A stretch of 64,000 bases of DNA from Pseudomonadota bacterium (GTDB lineage: Bacteria; Pseudomonadota; Alphaproteobacteria; Caulobacterales; Caulobacteraceae): assembly GCA_018241995.1 (NCBI GenBank), contig JAFECT010000009.1, positions 350,113-414,112 of the forward strand, in the 5' to 3' direction. A program made the position numbers and the translations under genes. Below are positions 35,529 to 52,872 of the stretch, piece by piece; the stretch's first letter is position 1, and each line of letters starts with the position of its first letter. Below the pieces are notes generated by a model that saw only the letters and a list, made by a program, of their open reading frames with translations, had not been told where the DNA came from and did no database searches.

Positions 35529-36389
35529 ATGGCTCTTGTAGCGTTCCTGCTTACGCTCGGCGTTTGCTTGGCAAACTTTGGCGACTTTATTTTGGGTGCA
35601 AAGATAGATGGCGGCATTAGAGCGGGGCTGCGGCGGTTTCGGGCGCAGGTAGAGGCGGATAGGACCTCAATTTATAGATTGCCAGCCGGTGTACTGCTGC
35701 AATTCTATGGGCATATTTTCGGTCGTCGCGGGCTTGTGCGGATTTACCGGGTATCGATGCTTAGTATTATAACAACAATGCTAATAGTTATTATTGGCAC
35801 ACTAATAAATATGAATGAAAATCATTGGAGGTCAGCATTCATCCGCGGCGCCTTTTCGTCGATAGAATTCGCCCTCTTGCCCGTCGCGGTAGTTGGGGTC
35901 GCCTGCGACTTGGTTGCGTGGAGCCTTTTTGGCTACGCCCTGAAAGCAATTTCCGAGTCACCGCCCCGCGCGGCGCTCACTTATCTTATTGCTACAATTA
36001 CCGTCGTAGGCCTCATGCCTTTTACGGCAATTGTCGGGTGGACGATAGTGGCGGCAGTTGCTACTGAGGCCGATTTTTCACAGGTAATTGGCGCTTCGCG
36101 CGATATGATCGCTATGTTTACGCATATATTTCTGTATTCGCATATTTCTACGGGCGACAGGGTTCTTTGGGTGCTTCCGCTGCTGAGCATCGTGCCGCTG
36201 GTTGTCTTACTGCTAGTGGTGGGAACAGGCTGGATGTTGGCGTCGCCACTTTCGCCGCTCCTATCTCCAGCGTTAATCTTTATGACGCGGTTAGAAGGGT
36301 CTACAAAACCTGTCCTTACCACCGTCGCAGCGGGCTTGACGGCCGCAGCCGCGCTTCTTGCAGCAGCTAAGGGGCTGCTTCATCCATGA
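35529..36389 (+). CDS. Polytopic membrane protein, AT-rich, unknown
   Basis: 286 residues with about six hydrophobic segments (for example ALVAFLLTLGVCLANFGDFIL, MLSIITTMLIVIIGTLINM, LPLLSIVPLVVLLLVVGTGW and a final TTVAAGLTAAAALLAAAKG). The codons are rich in ATA, TTA and AAT, unlike the chromosome, which points to recent acquisition. The ATG follows AAGGGGG. The stop overlaps by four bases the start of a shortened S1/P1-like gene, so the two are translated together. No family recognised. Confidence 0.7.
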   Translation: MALVAFLLTLGVCLANFGDFILGAKIDGGIRAGLRRFRAQVEADRTSIYRLPAGVLLQFYGHIFGRRGLVRIYRVSMLSIITTMLIVIIGTLINMNENHWRSAFIRGAFSSIEFALLPVAVVGVACDLVAWSLFGYALKAISESPPRAALTYLIATITVVGLMPFTAIVGWTIVAAVATEADFSQVIGASRDMIAMFTHIFLYSHISTGDRVLWVLPLLSIVPLVVLLLVVGTGWMLASPLSPLLSPALIFMTRLEGSTKPVLTTVAAGLTAAAALLAAAKGLLHP

Positions 36390-36721
36390 TCGGCGGCAGT
36401 TTAGTTGCAAGGACTTTCGCCGCCGCAGTTGCGACGCTTTCATTACCGTCACTCGCGTTTGCTTGGGGCTCGGTAGGTCACAGGATTACGGCGCTAATCC
36501 CGTGTCGCCCCCCAACACCCGCCGCGAGGGCCAGGCTCGACGCCCTTCTGGCGTCGGACACCGATACGCTCGCCTCTGGAGTGCTCTCCAGCGCCGGCCC
36601 TGCGGATGACTGTGTTGTGTACGAGCTCCAGGAGTTCTCCGTCCAGCTAGGGGGCGACAGGAGTAATAGGCTTGCAATAAGCTCGGTTTTGGCTAGCGCG
36701 CCTGAACGAGCACGTATTTGA
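36386..36721 (+). pseudogene. Shortened S1/P1-nuclease-like protein (N-terminal part only)
   Basis: 111 residues. A signal peptide (ARTFAAAVATLSLPSLAFA) is cut just before WGSVGHRITALIP; the N-terminal Trp and the His of WGxxGH are zinc ligands in S1/P1 nucleases. Similarity continues through ARARLDALLASDTDTL and then stops: the WHY, HxxxD-x2-HQPLH and LHxVWD motifs are absent. It may be a decayed remnant, or a small exported protein that kept the domain's first part. It shares ATGA with the upstream membrane-protein gene, and the next gene starts immediately after its stop (TGAATG), so it is embedded in an operon. Confidence 0.55.
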
Positions 36722-38285: not shown

Positions 38286-39353
38286 TCAGGGGCGATGCTT
38301 CGTACGGGGGTGCGACGTGTGTCGTCTGCAGTGGTGGGTGGCAGTTGCCTTGCAGTGGTGAAGCGTGTGTCTCGGCGTCGGCTTTGGCCTCGGAGGGGCC
38401 GGCACCGGCTCCTGAGGAAGGGGTATTGGCCCGAGTTGCGGGCCAGGCGTCCCTTGAGCCGCGGCGTTCAGAACTCCGGCTAGCCTGACGACGCCGCTTT
38501 GGAGCTGTTTTGCGACGATAGGGCTTTCCTGCGAAATGTACGACGCTCGGACGACGTAGGACGCTCCCGGAGTACAGGCGGGCGTGTATCCGATGTCGCC
38601 ATACGCATGTGCGGTCAGGGCGAAGCTCTCAGCCGCCCAGGCGTCTACGCTATTAACGTCCTGCGGATCTGCGATCGCCTGGCCCACGCTGGCGTCGACG
38701 GTCGCCTCCGCAGAGGCAAGGTCGGGACTAACGGCTGCCGCAACGAGGTCGTTATCCCAGACTGCGTGAAGTTCCTTGCTGTGCCGAACGCCCGGTAGCA
38801 CGCCAGAGTCGTAAGTCACCGGGACGTCGTTCCCGCCTTTGTCGCCCTGGTCGCCCATGTGCAGGGGTTGGTGGATGTCCCCAAGGAAGTGCGCCAGCTG
38901 CGCAAGGGCGAGGAGCCGAGCCTCCGGCGCGGCCGACGTGTCGCGCATCGCGGAATAGGCGCGCTTGATGGCCTCGGTCGCGCAGGCGCCCTGGTCGCAG
39001 TAGACGGCCGGCGGAAGCGGTGCGCCGCACTTGGACATGTTGTCGTAATGCCAATTGCGCATGAACTGGTACTTGCCGACGAGATGGTTGTTGGGAATTT
39101 TCACGCAGTCCGGAAACTCGGCCGCATCCTCAAGCGAGTGGATTGGACATGCCGTTTCGCCCGAGGCCTCTCGCGCCTGCTGGCCGGCGACGATGATGCT
39201 GTCGACTTCGGCTCTCGCTGCCGGCGAGAGGTGGCGGTACGCCAGAGCCCCGATGAGGCGGTGGCCCTCTTGGCCCCATGCCGATGCCTGGCTGGCGACC
39301 CCAATTCCCACTAGCAAAGCACACACGCTCGAAACGACACGCACTCGGGTCAT
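38286..39353 (-). CDS. S1/P1 nuclease, exported, full-length
   Basis: 355 residues. ATG at 39353 has GGGGAGGG upstream. The signal peptide ends ASQASA, leaving W26 as the mature N-terminal zinc-binding Trp (WGQEGH, H31). The other trinuclear zinc motifs are present in order: RNWHYDNM, AHFLGDIHQPLHMGDQGDKGGNDVPV, and KELHAVWDNDL. The C-terminal helix YISQESPIVAKQLQSGVVRLAGVLN follows, then an unusual Pro/His/Lys-rich tail of about 50 residues. Such enzymes cut single-stranded DNA and RNA in the periplasm or outside the cell. It is the only complete one of three related genes in the island. Confidence 0.9.
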   Translation of the reverse strand: MTRVRVVSSVCALLVGIGVASQASAWGQEGHRLIGALAYRHLSPAARAEVDSIIVAGQQAREASGETACPIHSLEDAAEFPDCVKIPNNHLVGKYQFMRNWHYDNMSKCGAPLPPAVYCDQGACATEAIKRAYSAMRDTSAAPEARLLALAQLAHFLGDIHQPLHMGDQGDKGGNDVPVTYDSGVLPGVRHSKELHAVWDNDLVAAAVSPDLASAEATVDASVGQAIADPQDVNSVDAWAAESFALTAHAYGDIGYTPACTPGASYVVRASYISQESPIVAKQLQSGVVRLAGVLNAAAQGTPGPQLGPIPLPQEPVPAPPRPKPTPRHTLHHCKATATHHCRRHTSHPRTKHRP

Positions 39354-39662
39354 CGCGCCCTCCCCGGCAACCGTGTGGAAGCGAGAAGATCGCGCTATTG
39401 GCGAAAAATGTCTACGTCGCAATCGTCTCTGCGACGGACCTGGCTGCGGAGAGATTTGACGCTAGCCTACCGATGTTCTGTCTGGAAGCGTACAATAAGG
39501 CGGCGCATCGACAGAGCATCGTTACCAAAATGTTAGGGTGCCTAGACCTGTGTAAGGTTTCGTTATGATCCGCGAAGCGTGGAGGCATATAATCCCCCGA
39601 ACAAGCCTCAAGCGCGGCCCAGCTGATTTGACAACTAAGCGATTTGTTCCATACGTAAAAAA
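39354..39662. other. Non-coding stretch before the abi leader
   Basis: About 310 bases between the leftward S1/P1 gene and the candidate leader RNA. A TTGACA box is at 39628-39633; 17 bases on lies the ATACGTAAAA region, a poor -10 but AT-rich. Another TTGACA is at 39673-39678. Rightward frames here are short and lack ribosome sites. Confidence 0.4.
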
Positions 39663-39758
39663 TTATTTCTCATTGACACCGAATCGGGGGGTTGATAGTT
39701 ATTACCCGTAACAACACCCCCCACGCCTCTCAACGATGCGCCTCAGGGGGGTTTCTTT
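39663..39758 (+). ncRNA. Candidate structured leader / abiF-type RNA upstream of abi
   Basis: A leader with three complementary tracts: G6 at 39686-39691, C6 at 39717-39722 and G6 at 39746-39751. C6 with the flanking A can pair with the second G6 plus T to form a 7-bp terminator-like stem, followed by TTTCTTTTT. It can instead pair with the first G6, enclosing a GTTA/TAAC hairpin (39698-39701, 39709-39712). The second G6 also looks like the ribosome site for abi. A structured RNA motif (abiF) is known to accompany Abi_2/AbiF genes in other bacteria; whether this belongs to it needs a covariance search. Boundaries are inferred. Confidence 0.5.
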
Positions 39759-40667
39759 TTGCCCAAAGCGCCTTACCAGAAGCCGGCAAAGTCGCTGGAT
39801 GACCAGCTAGCGTTACTGCGTGAGCGCGGCCTTATCATCCACGATGAGGCCGATGCGCGGCTGCATCTTGAAAACATCAGCTACTACCGGCTCTCGGGAT
39901 ACACGCGCTATTTCGCCGATCCCAGCGACCAGCGCCGCGAGCGCTTTCGTCCCGGCGTGACCTTCGGCGAAATTGGACAGTTGTACGTCTTTGATCGCCT
40001 GCTGCGAGTGCTTATGGCAGAGGCGTTTGAGCGAATTGAGGTCGCCGTAAAAGGTAGTCTCGCATACCACGGCGCTATGAACGCAGGCCCGTTCTGGATG
40101 ACGGACGCGGCCAACTTCGACCACGGGAGTCACGGCTCAGTCATGCGGCTGATCGATGAAGCCTGCATGCCCGGAAACGGCAAGCACAAGACTCAGTTCC
40201 TGGAGGCATTCTACAATAAATACAGCGATCCGCATCCGCCCGCATGGATGATATCGGAGGTATTATCATTTCACGGCGCTTCGATACTGTATAAAAATGC
40301 AAAGGGCATTATTAGAATTCCGGTTGCGGCCCGCTTTAATCTGCAACACGATATCATGGAAAGCTGGCTACACGCACTTGTATTCGCGAGAAACGTTTGC
40401 GCGCACCACCAACGACTTTGGAACAGAACCTTTACTATTAAGCCGAAGATCCCCAAAAACTACCAGGGTGAGTGGCCAGAAGGCGCAAGGGACAAGCTCT
40501 ACATCACCTGCTGCATCGTGAAGCACATGATGGATCGGCTTGGCGGGGATATGACGTGGGGACCCCGCTTGAGGCTTCTCATAAACTCACGCCCTGCCGT
40601 CCCGCTGCGGGCTATGGGCTTCCCCGACGATTGGGAATTATCGCCTGTTTGGGGCTTCAATCGCTAG
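39759..40667 (+). CDS. abiF: Abi_2/AbiF-family HEPN abortive-infection protein
   Basis: 302 residues, full length for the family. MPKAPYQKPAKSLDDQLALL and RGLIIHDEADARLHLENISYYRLSGY are the typical N-terminus; the HEPN ribonuclease motif RNxxxH appears as RNVCAHH with R211 and H216, followed by RLWNR. Members block phage growth by cutting RNA when released from control. The start codon is TTG at 39759, placed inside the U-tract of the upstream hairpin and 8 bases after a G6 ribosome site; no ATG or GTG nearby fits the family's N-terminus. It stands alone with its leader. Cytoplasmic. Confidence 0.88.
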   Translation: MPKAPYQKPAKSLDDQLALLRERGLIIHDEADARLHLENISYYRLSGYTRYFADPSDQRRERFRPGVTFGEIGQLYVFDRLLRVLMAEAFERIEVAVKGSLAYHGAMNAGPFWMTDAANFDHGSHGSVMRLIDEACMPGNGKHKTQFLEAFYNKYSDPHPPAWMISEVLSFHGASILYKNAKGIIRIPVAARFNLQHDIMESWLHALVFARNVCAHHQRLWNRTFTIKPKIPKNYQGEWPEGARDKLYITCCIVKHMMDRLGGDMTWGPRLRLLINSRPAVPLRAMGFPDDWELSPVWGFNR

Positions 40668-41193: not shown

Positions 41194-41809
41194 CACTTCG
41201 CATCTCGCGTGGCGCGACATTCACCACCAGCTTTCGACGCTGATCCCGGTGAAGTCGGCGGCTCAGAACATGGAGCCCAACGACGACGTGCGCCCGACGA
41301 CGCGCCAGCTGGTGGCCCGCATAGACGGTGACGGATGGGTGGTCGAGCCGATGCGCTGGGGCCTGATACCCTTCTGGTACAAGGGCCGTCTGAAGCCCTC
41401 CGAACGGGGCGCTGGCGACGGCTTCAAGCTGACGACGTTCAACGCCCGCACCGAGGACGTACACGCCAAGCCGACGTTCCGGGGACCGTTCGCCAAGCGC
41501 CGCTGCATCGTGCCTGCGTCGGGCTGGTACGAGTGGTCTGGAGACCCGAAGACCAAGCGCCGGTTCTCCCGCGTGGACGGCTCGCCCCTGTGGTTTGCCG
41601 GCATATGGGAGAGGGCCACAACCGAAGACGAAGGCGACGTTCAAAGCTTCACGATCCTGACCGGGCCTTCCTCAGGCTGGCTCTCCGATCACCACGACAG
41701 GGCGCCGGTTATCCTTGAGCCCGACGAGTGGGCTTCCTGGCTAGATCCATCGCAGGACGCAAAGCCGCTGATGGCCGCTGTTCGGCCTGATCGGTTCGCC
41801 CTGGCCTAA
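41177..41809 (+). CDS. SOS response-associated peptidase (SRAP/YedK/HMCES)
   Basis: 210 residues. The start at 41177 is chosen because SRAP proteins require the catalytic Cys at position 2 (MCGRFD) and AGGGGGTGAGG precedes it. N89 (FNARTED), E119 (SGWYEW) and H173 (HDRAP) complete the known site. SRAP proteins form a thiazolidine link to abasic sites in single-stranded DNA and so protect them; they are also frequent on phages and mobile elements. It is the last gene of a three-gene operon. Confidence 0.93.
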   Translation: MCGRFDTSHLAWRDIHHQLSTLIPVKSAAQNMEPNDDVRPTTRQLVARIDGDGWVVEPMRWGLIPFWYKGRLKPSERGAGDGFKLTTFNARTEDVHAKPTFRGPFAKRRCIVPASGWYEWSGDPKTKRRFSRVDGSPLWFAGIWERATTEDEGDVQSFTILTGPSSGWLSDHHDRAPVILEPDEWASWLDPSQDAKPLMAAVRPDRFALA

Positions 41810-41921
41810 CCGCAGGTAAAGGTCGTGCGGGAGACGGCCGGAAGTGGCCGATCGTGCACCTGCTCGACCCCGCGCCAGTAGGGGTGCGGCTTCGTATAGA
41901 CCCGCTCGACTACGAACCACG
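41806..41921 (-). pseudogene. 3' fragment duplicated from the gene at 43147
   Basis: The last 36 codons of the 96-aa gene at 43147-43437 are repeated here. The 111 bases at 41811-41921 match 43152-43262 with nine mismatches by my count. Reverse-strand translation reads WFVVERVY, then WRGVEQVHDRPLPAVSR, ending TFTCG and a stop, as in the intact gene. The remainder of the gene is absent. Confidence 0.75.
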
Positions 41922-42213: not shown

Positions 42214-42963
42214 CTAGCCCCAGGGGCCGCGCACTGGTGGCCCGCTCGGAACAACGTTCCACACGGAGAAGACGCGCTCCGACTTCGGGCTGTTTTTCGT
42301 CAGATCAAGGCCGTTGAACTTCTCGCTGACGTAGTCCGCCAGTTCCCTTTTCGGACCCTTCAAGTCGCGCGCGTTCCTGATAGCCGTAAAGGCTCCAAGC
42401 GGAACGTCGAGAAGCTGCAACAAGGGGTCTCTGCGCGAGTCGCTCGGCTGGATGCTCTCAATGCAGTCTAGGGGCGTTTTGTAGTGATGGCGGCCCCAAT
42501 CATGGAGGCTGTCCAGCTGGTCAACCAACGCGGCCGTGCAGTCTCCGTTATCGGGGCGAATTCGCAGCTTGTAGTGCGGACCGTAAAACTGGACGGCTCG
42601 ATGAAGCAGAAGCTGGTAGTGCATCTTGCTGGTCGTATCAATGCGCCGCTTGGGTCCGCTGGCGCTGTGATCGTACTTCGCAAACGGTGCAAATCGAATG
42701 TGGAAGTGAATTCTACCCTTTCCGACCGCTTCGGCGAAGTAATCTACAAACGCACGATGAGCGCTGTCCCGCCGGGACTTGACGTTCGCCCATTTCGTTT
42801 CAGTTGGGCCGCCTTTGCCCTTCTTGATCGCGAGAAGGTCGTCCATCACGCGCTTCAGGGCTACGTCCGGAATAGCAAGGCCGGCGACTGCCATGAAATC
42901 GTCACTCACGAACGAGCTTTCGTCGCAGAAGTAATAGACGTGCTTGACGGATGGCCGCGCCAT
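42214..42963 (-). CDS. DUF3800 domain protein
   Basis: 249 residues. The N-terminal VYYFCDESSF (D14, E15) followed by DDFMAVAGLAI is the DUF3800 signature, a predicted RNase H-like fold with the first Asp as metal ligand; ETKWANVK and RPDNGDCTAALVDQLDSL fit the next parts, and LLQLLDVPLGAFTAIRN is the usual final acidic motif. DUF3800 genes are common in mobile elements and near defence genes, but their activity is not established. It stands alone on the minus strand. Confidence 0.8.
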   Translation of the reverse strand: MARPSVKHVYYFCDESSFVSDDFMAVAGLAIPDVALKRVMDDLLAIKKGKGGPTETKWANVKSRRDSAHRAFVDYFAEAVGKGRIHFHIRFAPFAKYDHSASGPKRRIDTTSKMHYQLLLHRAVQFYGPHYKLRIRPDNGDCTAALVDQLDSLHDWGRHHYKTPLDCIESIQPSDSRRDPLLQLLDVPLGAFTAIRNARDLKGPKRELADYVSEKFNGLDLTKNSPKSERVFSVWNVVPSGPPVRGPWG

Positions 42964-43146: not shown

Positions 43147-43437
43147 CTAGCCGCACGTAAACGTCACGCGGGAGACGGCCGGGAGTGGCCGATCGTGCAC
43201 CTGCTCGACCCCGCGCCAGTAGGCGTCCGGCCTCGCATAGACCCGCTCGACTACGAACCACGCCCGATAGCCTTCGAACTCGGGCATATGCTCTTTCTGG
43301 ATCACGCCGACTGTGCTGCGCCCTCGAGCGTAGTGTTGAAACGTGAAGTGCAGCAGCACCTTCCTACCGTCGAACTCCTCGTAGGTGTGGCGCGTGACCA
43401 GGGCGACGAATGAGCGGGCCATGCGAAATGGAACCAT
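43147..43437 (-). CDS. Hypothetical protein, 96 aa
   Basis: Start chosen at the ATG at 43437; the frame is open far upstream but that part is low-complexity Arg/Pro sequence. The core FVALVTRHTYEEFDGRKVLL and HFTFQHYARGRSTVGVIQKE suggests a compact beta-rich protein with Cys near the end (FTCG). No family known to me. Its 3' third is duplicated at 41811-41921. Confidence 0.6.
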   Translation of the reverse strand: MVPFRMARSFVALVTRHTYEEFDGRKVLLHFTFQHYARGRSTVGVIQKEHMPEFEGYRAWFVVERVYARPDAYWRGVEQVHDRPLPAVSRVTFTCG

Positions 43438-47870: not shown

Positions 47871-48151
47871 GCGGAGGCGCGCTGATCGACGAGCCACCTG
47901 TTGCCGCGGCTGCTGGATCGGTCCGGTCTGCAAGGCCGTTCCCAGCCGTTGGCACATGCTCGACCACCCACGGCGTTTCGATCCGAGCCCGACTGACCTC
48001 GGCATTTTGTGGACTTGCTGCCGCCTCGTCTTCACTTCGGAAGCTCAAGACAGATCTGGGCGGAGGGGTGCCGCCAGCAACGGCGCAGCCTCATTAACCC
48101 TTGCCTGTTGATACCAGGCTATACTCATGCGCGCATCGGTCGGGGCGCTGC

Positions 48152-49870
48152 ATGAGAAAGCTGTATTTTGGGGACAACCTTGCGGTCCTACGGGACCGGA
48201 TCGAGAATTCGTCGGTCGATCTAGTCTATCTCGATCCCCCCTTTAATAGCCAAGCGCGCTACAACGTTCTGTTCAAGAGCCCGCGCCAGGACGTGGCCAC
48301 GGCGCAAGCTGCCGCGTTCCTGGATTTTTGGTCCTGGGGTCATGAAGCGGAGTCGGCTTACCACGAGCTTTTGACAACGGTGGGAGGAAGCACGGCGTCG
48401 ATTGTGCAGGCGCTTCGAAGCGCTTTGGGTGAAAGCGACATGATGGCGTACCTGGTCATGATGGCAGTGCGTCTTCAGGAGCTCCGGAGAGTACTGCGAC
48501 CTAGCGGCTCCATCTTTCTGCACTGCGACCCGACTGCAAGCCACTATCTTAAGGTGCTGCTTGACGCCGTATTCGGGGCTGGTGGGTTCACAAATGAGAT
48601 CATCTGGCAGCGCTCAATGGGCAAAGCCTTGATGACTAGGCGCCTTCCTTCGAACCACGACGTCATACTGTTTTATGCAGGCCCCGATGCTGCGTGGAAC
48701 GACGATCAGGCCTTTCTTCCGTATGACATCGATACGCTTTCGGGAAAGACTGCCGAGAAATACGCATTGAGGGATGGTTCGGGCCGGCCCTACCAGCTCA
48801 CTAGCCTGATCAACCCAAGCTCCGATCGCCCGAACCTGACCTACGAGTTTCTAGGCGTAACGCGAGTTTGGCGATGGACTCGTGAGCGCATGCAGGATGC
48901 ATACGAGCGTGGATTAGTTGTGCAGACCGCGCCAGGCCGAGTCCCGAGATTTAAGCGCTACCTCGACGAGCAGCGCGGTGTGCCATTGAGCGATGTCTGG
49001 ACCGACATACCGCCCCTCAACTCTCAAGCGCGGGAACGCATTGGGTATCCGACACAGAAACCACTCGCGTTGCTCAGTCGAATTATACAGCTTAGTTCAC
49101 GCCCGGATAGCGTTGTCCTAGACCCATTCTGCGGCTGCGGTACTACCGTTCACGCTGCGGAGCTTCATAACAGACCCTGGGTAGGCATCGACGTTTCCAT
49201 TCATGCGGTCCACGTTATTGAGCAGCGGCTCCTCGAAGCGTTTGGTGATCGACGTGTGCCGTCCGCTGAAGGGATACCTGCCGACTACGAATCTGCTGCT
49301 CAATTGGCTGCGACGAACCCATTCCAGTTTCAGTGGTGGGCGAACTACCTAATCGGCGTTCATCGGCTCAACGAGGTCAAGAGGGGACCAGATCGCGGCG
49401 TTGATGGTGAGGTGTTCTTCCCAAACGGACCTGGTCGCCCGTACGGCCGTATCCTCACCTCTGTGAAGGGCGGCAAGAACGTTACCCCCGCAATGGTTCG
49501 CGAATTGCGTGGGGTCATCGAGCGAGAGAACGCGGAGCTCGGCCTATTCATCTGTCTCGACGATCCAACATCGGCGATGGAACGTGAGGCGGTTGTGGCG
49601 GGTTTTGGAAACACCGTACACGGCCGAATTCCCAGGCTGCAGATCGTAAGTATTGCAGGGTGGTTCCGGGGAGAACGTCCGGCGATGCCGGCCCTGGATC
49701 GTCTTCCGTACGCTGCATTCAACGCTCCTCAGAAGCGGGGACGAGCGAGACGCCCGGATCCCAATCAACCGCACCTTCCCCTGAGTTTCATCGGGGACAA
49801 GGCGAACGTTGTAAGTCACCTGAATCCCGCCCTCGTTACCTCTACACCGCAACGTAGAGACGCTAGATAG
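48152..49870 (+). CDS. Beta-class DNA methyltransferase fused to Mrr-like nuclease domain
   Basis: About 572 residues from the ATG at 48152 (MRKLYFGDNLAVLRD). The catalytic YLDPPFNS comes first (residue about 30) and the SAM-binding FCGCGTT later (about 325), the order of beta-class N6-adenine or N4-cytosine methyltransferases. After residue 390 a second domain begins: FQFQWWANYLIGV, then GPDRGVDGEVFF and ILTSVKGGKNVTP, resembling the D...(E/Q/S)xK core of Mrr-type PD-(D/E)xK nucleases. One chain may thus modify and cut DNA, or cut in response to methylation. No separate restriction gene is adjacent. Confidence 0.82.
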   Translation: MRKLYFGDNLAVLRDRIENSSVDLVYLDPPFNSQARYNVLFKSPRQDVATAQAAAFLDFWSWGHEAESAYHELLTTVGGSTASIVQALRSALGESDMMAYLVMMAVRLQELRRVLRPSGSIFLHCDPTASHYLKVLLDAVFGAGGFTNEIIWQRSMGKALMTRRLPSNHDVILFYAGPDAAWNDDQAFLPYDIDTLSGKTAEKYALRDGSGRPYQLTSLINPSSDRPNLTYEFLGVTRVWRWTRERMQDAYERGLVVQTAPGRVPRFKRYLDEQRGVPLSDVWTDIPPLNSQARERIGYPTQKPLALLSRIIQLSSRPDSVVLDPFCGCGTTVHAAELHNRPWVGIDVSIHAVHVIEQRLLEAFGDRRVPSAEGIPADYESAAQLAATNPFQFQWWANYLIGVHRLNEVKRGPDRGVDGEVFFPNGPGRPYGRILTSVKGGKNVTPAMVRELRGVIERENAELGLFICLDDPTSAMEREAVVAGFGNTVHGRIPRLQIVSIAGWFRGERPAMPALDRLPYAAFNAPQKRGRARRPDPNQPHLPLSFIGDKANVVSHLNPALVTSTPQRRDAR

Positions 49871-50109
49871 CGCGCCACTCGCTAAGCCGCGCACTAAGTC
49901 CGAAGTCCGCCTTGTTGTCGCCGCTCCCGTGAAGCCGGGATTGCGGGTGTCCCATAGCGTCCCGGCCTCAGGGCTCGGGTGCGGCATGGGACGCGCTGGG
50001 ACGGTTTGGGTCCCTCTGCGGTTGGCCGGCGGGCCGGGGGCGCGCGGAGCCCCGGCGCTCGACCGTTTTGTCTCGCCCTAGGCTACACACGGTCGCTGCT
50101 AGGAGGCGC
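49871..50109. other. Non-coding stretch after the methyltransferase
   Basis: No gene supported. GC-rich, with short imperfect palindromes such as GTCCCATAGCGTCCC and GGCCGGCGGGCCGG; it continues into the iteron cluster. Confidence 0.3.
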
Positions 50110-50382
50110 CTACAGCCCTCCCGCCTGTAGTTGAACCTGTAGGTGCGTAAGCCATTGGCACTTCAAAACAATCTACAGCCCTACAAGAACTACAAGGGTT
50201 TCTGAGATCGGCATTAGGATTAGTTTAGGGGGCACCCCGCCTGGCAGAACGGAGCGCGGATTCTGCACATAGGAAAACGCGGTAGTTCCTGTAGGGCCTG
50301 TAGGCGGGTAGCCAAATTCCCTTATGGTGCACGGAATTCTCCACCTACAGGCTGGCCTACAGGTGGTCGAACCAGGCTGTAG
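50110..50382. repeat. CTGTAG/CTACAG iteron cluster (candidate replication origin)
   Basis: CTACAG at 50110, 50173, 50345 and 50357; CTGTAG at 50125, 50137, 50289, 50298 and 50377, plus two CTACAAG at 50181 and 50190. Many extend to CCTGTAGG or CCTACAGG, and several are arranged as inverted pairs. The cluster directly follows the primase-helicase gene, so it is a good candidate for the binding sites of that protein. Confidence 0.6.
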
Positions 50383-50406
50383 TTTTCTGAGGTTGGCAGT
50401 ACGCGC

Positions 50407-52872
50407 CTACGCGCGAATATAAATTCGCTGATTTCCGAATTTTTCGGTCACACGCGGGGTGCGCTTAATCCAGCCGTCGACCTTTCCCATCGCCCGGCCA
50501 AGTAGCTGGGCATCGGTCGCACGGTACGCGCTTCGATCGCGTCCGAGGCAATCGACCCAAATCTCTAGGAGGCACGTTTCGGCCCTCAGATGGCCCCCGC
50601 CAACTAGGTCGTCCTCGTCCGGATCGTCGAAGCCGACGAGGGGAAGATCGAGCCATCGGGAAATTTGCCCGGCGAGTGCATCCTCGGCGGTCTCAACGCG
50701 ACGGTCCTCCTGCACCTGAAGCGCCTCTTCGCGGGCCTTCTCATCCGTGAGGTAGAGAGGCAGGGTCCCGGTCCGCTGAACCTCGCGCATGCCGCGGTAC
50801 ACATGGACGGCTTCGGCCCAAAGTTGGTCCACCTCGGCGCTCAGCCTGGCAGTGTCGATTTCATCAACCTCACACCGAACGGGCCAAAAGCGCCGGCCCC
50901 CGGTGTCGTCGCGCAGGTACTCGTCGTCATTGGTCGAGCCGATGAAGATGCACTGCCGCGGGAAGACGCTCGCACGCCGTGCGTAGGCGAGCCGAGCCTT
51001 GTCGTGAGTGCGTGAGATGAAGGCCTTGATCTGGCGCACGTCTGATCGGCTGAAGCCAGACAGCTCCGGAATTTCAAGGATGAGCGCGCCGTGCATGAGC
51101 TCGATCATTTGGCGCGGGTCGTGGAAGTCGCCTTCAAGCTCGGCGAACCAATGTCGTGCGAGGATGCTGATAAACGTCGATTTTCGCTTGCCCTGAAGGC
51201 CCTCCAGGATCGGGGCGAAGTCGAACTTGTGGCCGGGCTCAAACACCCTCGCCACGGCGCCGACCAGAGTCAGGCGTGCGACACTGCGAATGTAGGCGGT
51301 GTCTCGGGCGCCCAGGAAGCGCACGAACAGGGACTCCAATCTTGGAACGCGATCCCATTCCAAGGTCTCAAGCCATTCGCGCACCGGGTGGAACTGCTGT
51401 TCGCGTGCGACCAAATCGGTCGCGGCGCTAAGATCCCGGTCAGTCACTTTCAGGCCATACCCGCCCTGGCGCACGGCCGTCTCCAGCATCGCGCGGATCG
51501 CGTTGTCTTTCTCGTCCGTCCACAGATCGCCATTGATCGGATCAAGAATGGACCACATGGGACCGGCCAATTGTCGGACACCTTTGGGAGATGGCCGGCG
51601 AACCTCCAGTCGACCTGGCTCGCCACGCTGCACCACCTCACCCGTGAACAGGTTCAGGCGTGCCAACCCGCGCGTTCGTGGATCGTGGCGAATGATAAGC
51701 TCGAGGTTCGCGAGCGTTGGTTTGATGGCCCCCTGTTCGGTCAGGTCGAGCCTCGAACGCCAGTTGAGGTTCGGATCGCTCGCCCCGTTGCCGATGGCCT
51801 CGATTTCGTCGACCCCACCGATGGCGCAGGATGGCACGTCGCCGAGCAGATCGTCATCGCCATCCTCGAAGCCTTCGCCGGCATGGTCGTTTTCAAGACG
51901 GGCCAGGGCCGCGGCCTTGACCAGGGTGGCCATGCGCAGCGGGTTCGGCTTCCCGGCGAACGACGCCCAGACTCGTTCCTGGTCCGCGGCGTCGAACTTC
52001 GGGCTGCGCTTGGAGAAGTCGTCCCAGACCTTCAGGCCTTCGGGCCGACCTTCGAACTCGTGGTGCAGGGCCATGCCGACCTGCAGCCAGCCCTCCCGGT
52101 CCTCGCACCAGGCGTCGAACGGGAGGTCGGCTAGGATGTCGTCGATCTCTTCGGGCGACAGGCCCATCGGCTTCTTGCGGACCAGCGCTGAGAGGTCGTC
52201 GTCTTCCTCATCCCGGCCGCGGTCGGCGGTGACGCCCCATTCCTCGACCGTCCCCGCCGACACGACCGGCCCGCAGCCCATCTCGACCAGGTCGAAGTCG
52301 AACTCACGCTCCCAGGCGTAGGGGTTGCCGGTGTCCGGGTGGATCGACGGCGGCAAGACGACCTGCTTGCCCGTGCCGAAGAGCTCGATTTCCCAGGCCC
52401 AATGCCGCTTGCCCTCGGGATCGACGAACTTCTCGGCGGAGTGGGCGAGCTTCTTCGACCGGAACGGGCGATCCGTCAGGAAGTAGACGTGCCGGCTGTC
52501 GCCTCCTGAGCCCGAGCGCACCAGCGGGAAGTTGCGCCAGCCCGGGAGAACGGCGTCCAGGGCGTCGCGGGCCTCATCGGTGAGGTGGACCTGTCGAATA
52601 TCCAGGTCCAGGACGTGCAGGAACAGGCCCGCCACCTTCGACGGCTCGCCCAGGCGCACGCCGACGTTCTGACCACGGCGGTAGGCGCGCGACAGGTCGT
52701 CGAAGGTGGCGACGGGGAGCGTCGACCAATCGTCCTTGAACGGGGCCTTCGACCGTTCCCTCAGAAGGTGAACGGCGAATCCCTGGTCGACGAGATGACG
52801 GACGGACTCGAGCACCCTTCGCGTCGGATCGGGCTGAGTGTCGGCGGGCGAGGAACTATCAAATGGAGCCAT
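50407..52872 (-). CDS. Primase-polymerase / VapE-type superfamily 3 helicase
   Basis: 821 residues. The N-terminal 200 residues resemble a Prim-Pol domain (GVRLGEPSKVAGLFLHVLDLDI with its acidic pair, and SGGDSRHVYF). Residues about 250-330 are a PriCT-2-like region (DDILADLPFDAWCEDREGWLQVGMAL, RVWASF). The C-terminal half is VapE-like: LEWDRVPRLESLFVRFLGA, a P-loop GLQGKRKST (about residue 559; GKRKST instead of GxGKST), Walker B LILEIPELSG, and CIFIGSTNDDEYLRDDTGGRRFWPV. Such proteins replicate satellites and plasmids from an iteron origin. It is the last gene of the minus-strand operon. Confidence 0.88.
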   Translation of the reverse strand: MAPFDSSSPADTQPDPTRRVLESVRHLVDQGFAVHLLRERSKAPFKDDWSTLPVATFDDLSRAYRRGQNVGVRLGEPSKVAGLFLHVLDLDIRQVHLTDEARDALDAVLPGWRNFPLVRSGSGGDSRHVYFLTDRPFRSKKLAHSAEKFVDPEGKRHWAWEIELFGTGKQVVLPPSIHPDTGNPYAWEREFDFDLVEMGCGPVVSAGTVEEWGVTADRGRDEEDDDLSALVRKKPMGLSPEEIDDILADLPFDAWCEDREGWLQVGMALHHEFEGRPEGLKVWDDFSKRSPKFDAADQERVWASFAGKPNPLRMATLVKAAALARLENDHAGEGFEDGDDDLLGDVPSCAIGGVDEIEAIGNGASDPNLNWRSRLDLTEQGAIKPTLANLELIIRHDPRTRGLARLNLFTGEVVQRGEPGRLEVRRPSPKGVRQLAGPMWSILDPINGDLWTDEKDNAIRAMLETAVRQGGYGLKVTDRDLSAATDLVAREQQFHPVREWLETLEWDRVPRLESLFVRFLGARDTAYIRSVARLTLVGAVARVFEPGHKFDFAPILEGLQGKRKSTFISILARHWFAELEGDFHDPRQMIELMHGALILEIPELSGFSRSDVRQIKAFISRTHDKARLAYARRASVFPRQCIFIGSTNDDEYLRDDTGGRRFWPVRCEVDEIDTARLSAEVDQLWAEAVHVYRGMREVQRTGTLPLYLTDEKAREEALQVQEDRRVETAEDALAGQISRWLDLPLVGFDDPDEDDLVGGGHLRAETCLLEIWVDCLGRDRSAYRATDAQLLGRAMGKVDGWIKRTPRVTEKFGNQRIYIRA

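Follow-up and report, generated by a model that had tools for sequence, protein, structure and literature searches.

The leader of a putative toxin gene in which one C6 tract can pair with either of two G6 tracts, the second of them overlapping the ribosome site and followed by the start codon, raises the question of whether the toxin is governed by a switch between two exclusive RNA stems, as was originally predicted, or by one of these stems alone. The tracts are exactly where the original prediction placed them in the 64,000-nucleotide stretch of DNA analysed here (the window): G6 at 39686–39691, C6 at 39717–39722, G6 at 39746–39751, a tail at 39752–39760 and a TTG codon at 39759–39761. Pairing of the C6 tract with the first G6 gives stem 1, and pairing with the second gives stem 2. 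In our reading, which we hold with a probability of about 0.85, the locus is an AbiF-type RNA toxin–antitoxin module, with stem 2 as its abiF RNA.

The gene that begins at the TTG codon (39759–40667, + strand) is of the abiF/abiD type and encodes 302 amino acids. PF07751 (Abi_2) matches the product at E = 1.8e-45, the best PADLOC match is AbiD (E = 2.9e-62), and the HEPN motif, RNVCAH, contains R211 and H216, which are invariant in two alignments. A sequence search of the PDB returned a single relative, the Abi family protein 8vz6 (E = 1e-59), which is the PbAbiF dimer bound to ncRNA. The AlphaFold model of the window protein (mean pLDDT 93.1) aligns with this structure at a TM-score of 0.88 (E = 1.2e-21, 36% identity), and a fold search of the PDB gave no match other than 8vz6 at E below 0.001. 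All features that define AbiF/AbiD HEPN toxins, namely the Abi_2 domain, the RxxxxH motif and a PbAbiF-like fold, are present; judged by sequence and predicted structure, the product is an Abi_2/AbiD-F HEPN RNase that possesses the catalytic residues and is a putative toxin. Proteins of the AbiD/F group have been proposed as ancestors of Cas13 (PMC12165695, PMC12737573).

The hairpin upstream of the gene spans 39716–39752 (+ strand) and consists of an outer stem (39716–39722 with 39746–39752), an inner stem (39724–39726 with 39738–39740), a loop (39727–39737) and a 3' bulge (39741–39745). The Rfam model of the abiF RNA (RF03085), a search with which was proposed as a check of the original prediction, matches 39717–39752 at 39.9 bits, above the curated gathering cut-off of 37, and R1, a model built from 40 homologous leaders, scores the hairpin at 52.6 bits. 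Folded alone, stem 2 reaches -17.1 kcal/mol (z = -3.0) and is more stable than 200 of 200 shuffles. The two-part stem, the conserved loop and 3' bulge, and the covariation of the family are all found, and the site is directly upstream of the Abi_2 gene (PF07751), with 6 nt from the end of the stem to the start codon. The curated family match and the covariation place stem 2 beyond chance, and the hairpin is, by these comparisons, the known abiF RNA, which in relatives binds and silences the toxin. The predicted combination of an Abi_2/AbiF HEPN RNase with an abiF RNA is thus borne out by PF07751, the 8vz6 fold and RF03085 together. The match is the only one to RF03085 in the whole genome, and within the leader both RF03085 and R1 match once, with no tandem antitoxin repeats. 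Since the 3' bulge of the window copy (CCUCA) is one nucleotide shorter than in most relatives, antitoxin binding could differ here.

An alignment query served to gather homologues, both within the family, order and class of the window and among 80 named genomes that include Bacteroidota, Pseudomonadota and Acidobacteriota. Hairpins were placed by an automatic picker, a few of them by hand; besides the window, 108 of about 120 loci, spread over several phyla, have a hairpin of the stem 2 type immediately before the gene. With model R1 it is recovered in most of the 99 loci searched and, on viral contigs, in 32 of 46. The Rfam model exceeds its cut-off in only 7 of the 20 leader loci scanned, and a search of 385 genomes of the class with it found only 3; because R1 finds the hairpin in most loci, a missing Rfam match does not mean a missing RNA. 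In the 40-row alignment 98.2% of the cells are paired, both partners vary in 9 of 10 pairs, and the covariation score exceeds that of every shuffle. These counts use a MAFFT alignment in which the window row is one column off in the 3' arm; the covariation counts were repeated on a model-fitted alignment, which leans towards structure. Some leaders contain a further hairpin. In L004, L021, L022, L026 and L030 another, near-perfect hairpin separates the abiF hairpin from the start codon, and several of these leaders have a T tract behind it, giving a terminator distinct from the abiF motif, as in C. difficile; L088 has two tandem abiF-type hairpins upstream of the gene, like RCd22.

Right behind the stem of the window hairpin is a U-rich tract (39752–39760, + strand; TTTCTTTTT) that has a C at its fourth position, is terminator-like and overlaps the start codon. 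Likewise, at least five T residues within 9 nt behind the stem are present in 106 of 109 leaders, compared to a background of 15% in the same upstream regions, the count of 106 being somewhat biased upwards because the hairpin picker favoured T-rich tails; the T tracts can also be read by eye. As stem 2 is both conserved among the leaders and followed by a T-rich tail, it is at once a conserved RNA and a terminator-like element, in agreement with the terminator-like appearance originally noted for it. The claim that its 3' arm is the sole ribosome site of the gene holds as well: the Shine-Dalgarno (SD) sequence (39746–39751, + strand) is part of the arm AGGGGGGU, which pairs with the anti-SD at -10.7 kcal/mol compared to -11.9 for the canonical sequence, and no other candidate precedes the start codon, since between stem and start codon there is almost nothing but a short pyrimidine stretch.

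The start codon follows the stem by 5–6 nt in the window and in L012, L031, L041, L045, L050, L061, L072, L080 and L109, and several loci of a second leader set have a comparable distance; start codons were picked by script, wrongly in a few rows (L031, L089), and the compact set is based on recomputed starts. Some ten homologues, proteobacterial for the most part, thus share this compact layout. Many other genes begin at a greater distance from the stem, some with an SD of their own, so that SD masking is a trait of the compact subset and not of the family. What stands out at this locus, as read from its sequence, is compaction: a single 37-nt hairpin is the antitoxin motif, the terminator-like element and the only SD.

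Leader comparison also bears on where the transcript begins. A probable -35 element, TTGACA (39673–39678, + strand), is located 43 nt upstream of the hairpin and was assigned from consensus and position; after a 17-nt spacer it is followed by a probable -10 element, TAGTTA (39696–39701, + strand), which resembles those of related leaders in form and place, with TACTTA (L012, L023) and TATGTA (L078) as counterparts at the same position. Among homologous leaders, 21 of 28 occurrences of TTGAC cluster 40–42 nt upstream of the hairpin, and in 31 of 61 leaders of the non-Bacteroidota type the best TTGACA-like hexamer falls 39–44 nt upstream, compared to 10% in shuffles. In Bacteroidota-type leaders, 35 of 48 occurrences of TAnnTTTG precede the hairpin by 17–18 nt. 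A consensus promoter scan found no promoter, and the -10 element is weak. The predicted 5' end region of the transcript (39706–39715, + strand) holds a conserved AACAAC that adjoins the hairpin, and 57 of 109 leaders have AACA at 5–6 nt before the hairpin. These positions suggest that transcription probably starts near 39706–39711, downstream of the first G6. A second exact TTGACA, one of only five on the same strand of the 64 kb, is found at 39628–39633, 45 bp upstream of the chosen -35 element, with TACGTA (39652–39657) 18 nt further on; it is a possible second promoter and the one lead towards a longer transcript covering the upstream G6. In L134–L143, mostly from one family of the phylum set, a G-rich run such as GCGGGT directly follows the -10 element and adjoins the hairpin; it may be a G-rich discriminator, or else a pairing partner of the 5' arm.

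The RNA and protein families, the covarying hairpin with its U-rich tract and SD overlap, and the promoter position are established by comparison. From them we infer how the promoter would be used, where transcription would end, and how antitoxin and toxin would act in this organism, as follows. The promoter at 39673–39701 would give rise to a short RNA that starts near 39706–39711 and folds into the abiF hairpin (39716–39752). Most transcripts would probably end in the U-rich tract at 39752–39760, leaving an antitoxin RNA of about 45–50 nt that would bind the AbiF dimer and block its HEPN RNase site. Those few transcripts that read through would carry the gene, and translation of the toxin from them would be limited by the locking of the sole SD in the same hairpin.

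This scheme has close parallels among known systems. AbiF–RCd22 of the C. difficile phi027 prophage (Saunier et al. 2025, PMC12373285) likewise has an abiF motif upstream of an Abi_2/AbiF HEPN gene, a shared promoter, and a terminator between promoter and gene, which corresponds to the terminator-like element of the window. RCd22 and abiF share a transcript, which in most cases ends before the gene at a separate terminator, and RCd22 neutralizes AbiF by direct binding (PMC12373285). In contrast to the window, where a single motif doubles as terminator-like element and ribosome site, RCd22 consists of two abiF motifs (PMC12373285), with the terminator behind them and a ribosome site of its own, AGGTGA. 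The phiC2 homologue shares 28% identity with the window protein. The PbAbiF–AbiFr system of Prevotellaceae (8vz6) shares the protein fold at the values given above, and the Prevotellaceae leaders L035 and L038 contain a single hairpin of the same family, although their promoter is of the Bacteroidota type and their start codon comes 17 nt behind the stem, and the 3' bulge of the window is shorter than that of PbAbiF–AbiFr. According to a review of Zilberzwige-Tal et al. 2025 (PMC12737573), the PbAbiF toxin is neutralized by RNA binding, with one AbiFr RNA bound per monomer and bulge nucleotides inhibiting the RNase. Classical type III systems (ToxIN, TenpIN, CptIN) likewise have an RNase toxin gene preceded by an RNA antitoxin, with attenuation by termination in between (PMC12373285), but they employ other toxins, other complex structures and tandem-repeat antitoxins (PMC12373285), and the window has no tandem repeat.

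The original prediction of a toxin control switch, by either an antitoxin RNA or a cis attenuator, is thus well supported as regards an antitoxin RNA, here combined with a cis attenuator, through its fit to the published AbiF–AbiFr and RCd22 systems, and fails to find support in its two-state switching. A hairpin acting purely in cis, that is, limiting expression by termination and SD masking with no antitoxin action on the protein, would account for the hairpin, the U-rich tract and the SD overlap, all of which are there, and RCd22 too acts in cis via premature termination (PMC12373285). However, the conservation of letters in the loop and inner stem (CGCCTCTC...GC) far exceeds the requirements of a terminator, and relatives of both partners are found in complexes that have been solved or shown biochemically (8vz6; PMC12373285), which makes a purely cis-acting element unlikely.

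Still less probable is riboswitch-like control in which the upstream G6 would compete for the C6 and open both terminator and SD. The two stems are indeed both thermodynamically possible in a transcript starting upstream of 39686, as the second TTGACA at 39628, with its TACGTA, could produce: the computed folds are nearly isoenergetic (-31.7 kcal/mol with stem 1 and -30.2 kcal/mol with the abiF hairpin), and, compared to shuffles of the window leader, stem 1 is conspicuous (mid-p 0.008). In the computed ensemble of this longer transcript, however, the SD is still mostly paired. Moreover, the first G6 (39686–39691, + strand), the 5' arm of the proposed stem 1, is positioned in the spacer between the -35 and -10 elements of a promoter whose spacing to the hairpin is conserved, so that stem 1 is probably not transcribed; the closeness of the two folds, should a longer transcript exist, makes the switch improbable rather than impossible.

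Comparison of homologous leaders, from which conservation of both stems would be expected under such a switch, upheld stem 2, which is conserved and covarying, and not the G6 of stem 1. Upstream tracts complementary to the 5' arm of the hairpin are not enriched relative to shuffles across 108 leaders (mean mid-p 0.53). In favour of a switch, L050, L061 and L083 also carry 6-nt tracts of this kind, in the promoter spacer, with the window as the most extreme case (7 nt), and a proteobacterial-type subset, chosen post hoc and with the window excluded, gives a combined p of about 0.05. The tract at the spacer position was not reproduced in the second set of 28 leaders, in which three values of p < 0.05 come from near-identical leaders of one family, where the site adjoins the hairpin instead of being in the spacer. 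Stem 1 as a family-wide element was rejected on the grounds that it is neither conserved nor enriched across the leader sets. Finally, although the hairpin does look like a terminator, the idea that it is just an ordinary one, or an inverted repeat that arose by chance beside a decayed abi gene, is hardly credible in view of the curated RNA-family match, the covariation, the PbAbiF-like fold and an intact 302-aa reading frame with all invariant residues.

Under the toxin–antitoxin reading, the window represents a further member of an already published kind of RNA module, possibly with an autoregulatory twist. We suggest, tentatively, that the one 37-nt hairpin may serve as RNA antitoxin, intrinsic terminator and SD lock, and that AbiF, by binding the hairpin of its own read-through mRNA, might allow free toxin to repress its own translation; such feedback through the leader, like any response to phage, is speculative. 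If true, this minimal, single-hairpin version would offer a simple, testable model for how a HEPN RNase acquires an RNA and how such toxins stay silent. We found no description of the compact layout in the literature covered, which excludes Weinberg et al. 2017, reportedly the original abiF motif paper, and the primary article of Zilberzwige-Tal et al. 2025.

Elsewhere in the window, a DUF3800 gene (42214–42963, - strand), assigned to PDC-M04A by PADLOC, is flanked by a 116-nt direct repeat (41806–41921 and 43147–43262, 91% identical). A DNA methylase with an Mrr-like C-terminal part (48101–49870) is encoded beside a VapE/Prim-Pol protein (50407–52872), which places defence and mobile-element genes (48101–52872) within about 10 kb of abi. 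On the other side, a short reading frame (36386–36721, + strand) starts, by eye, like the S1/P1 nuclease encoded at 38286–39422 on the - strand (AFAWGSVGHRI compared to SAWGQEGHRLI), and looks like a truncated second copy of it.
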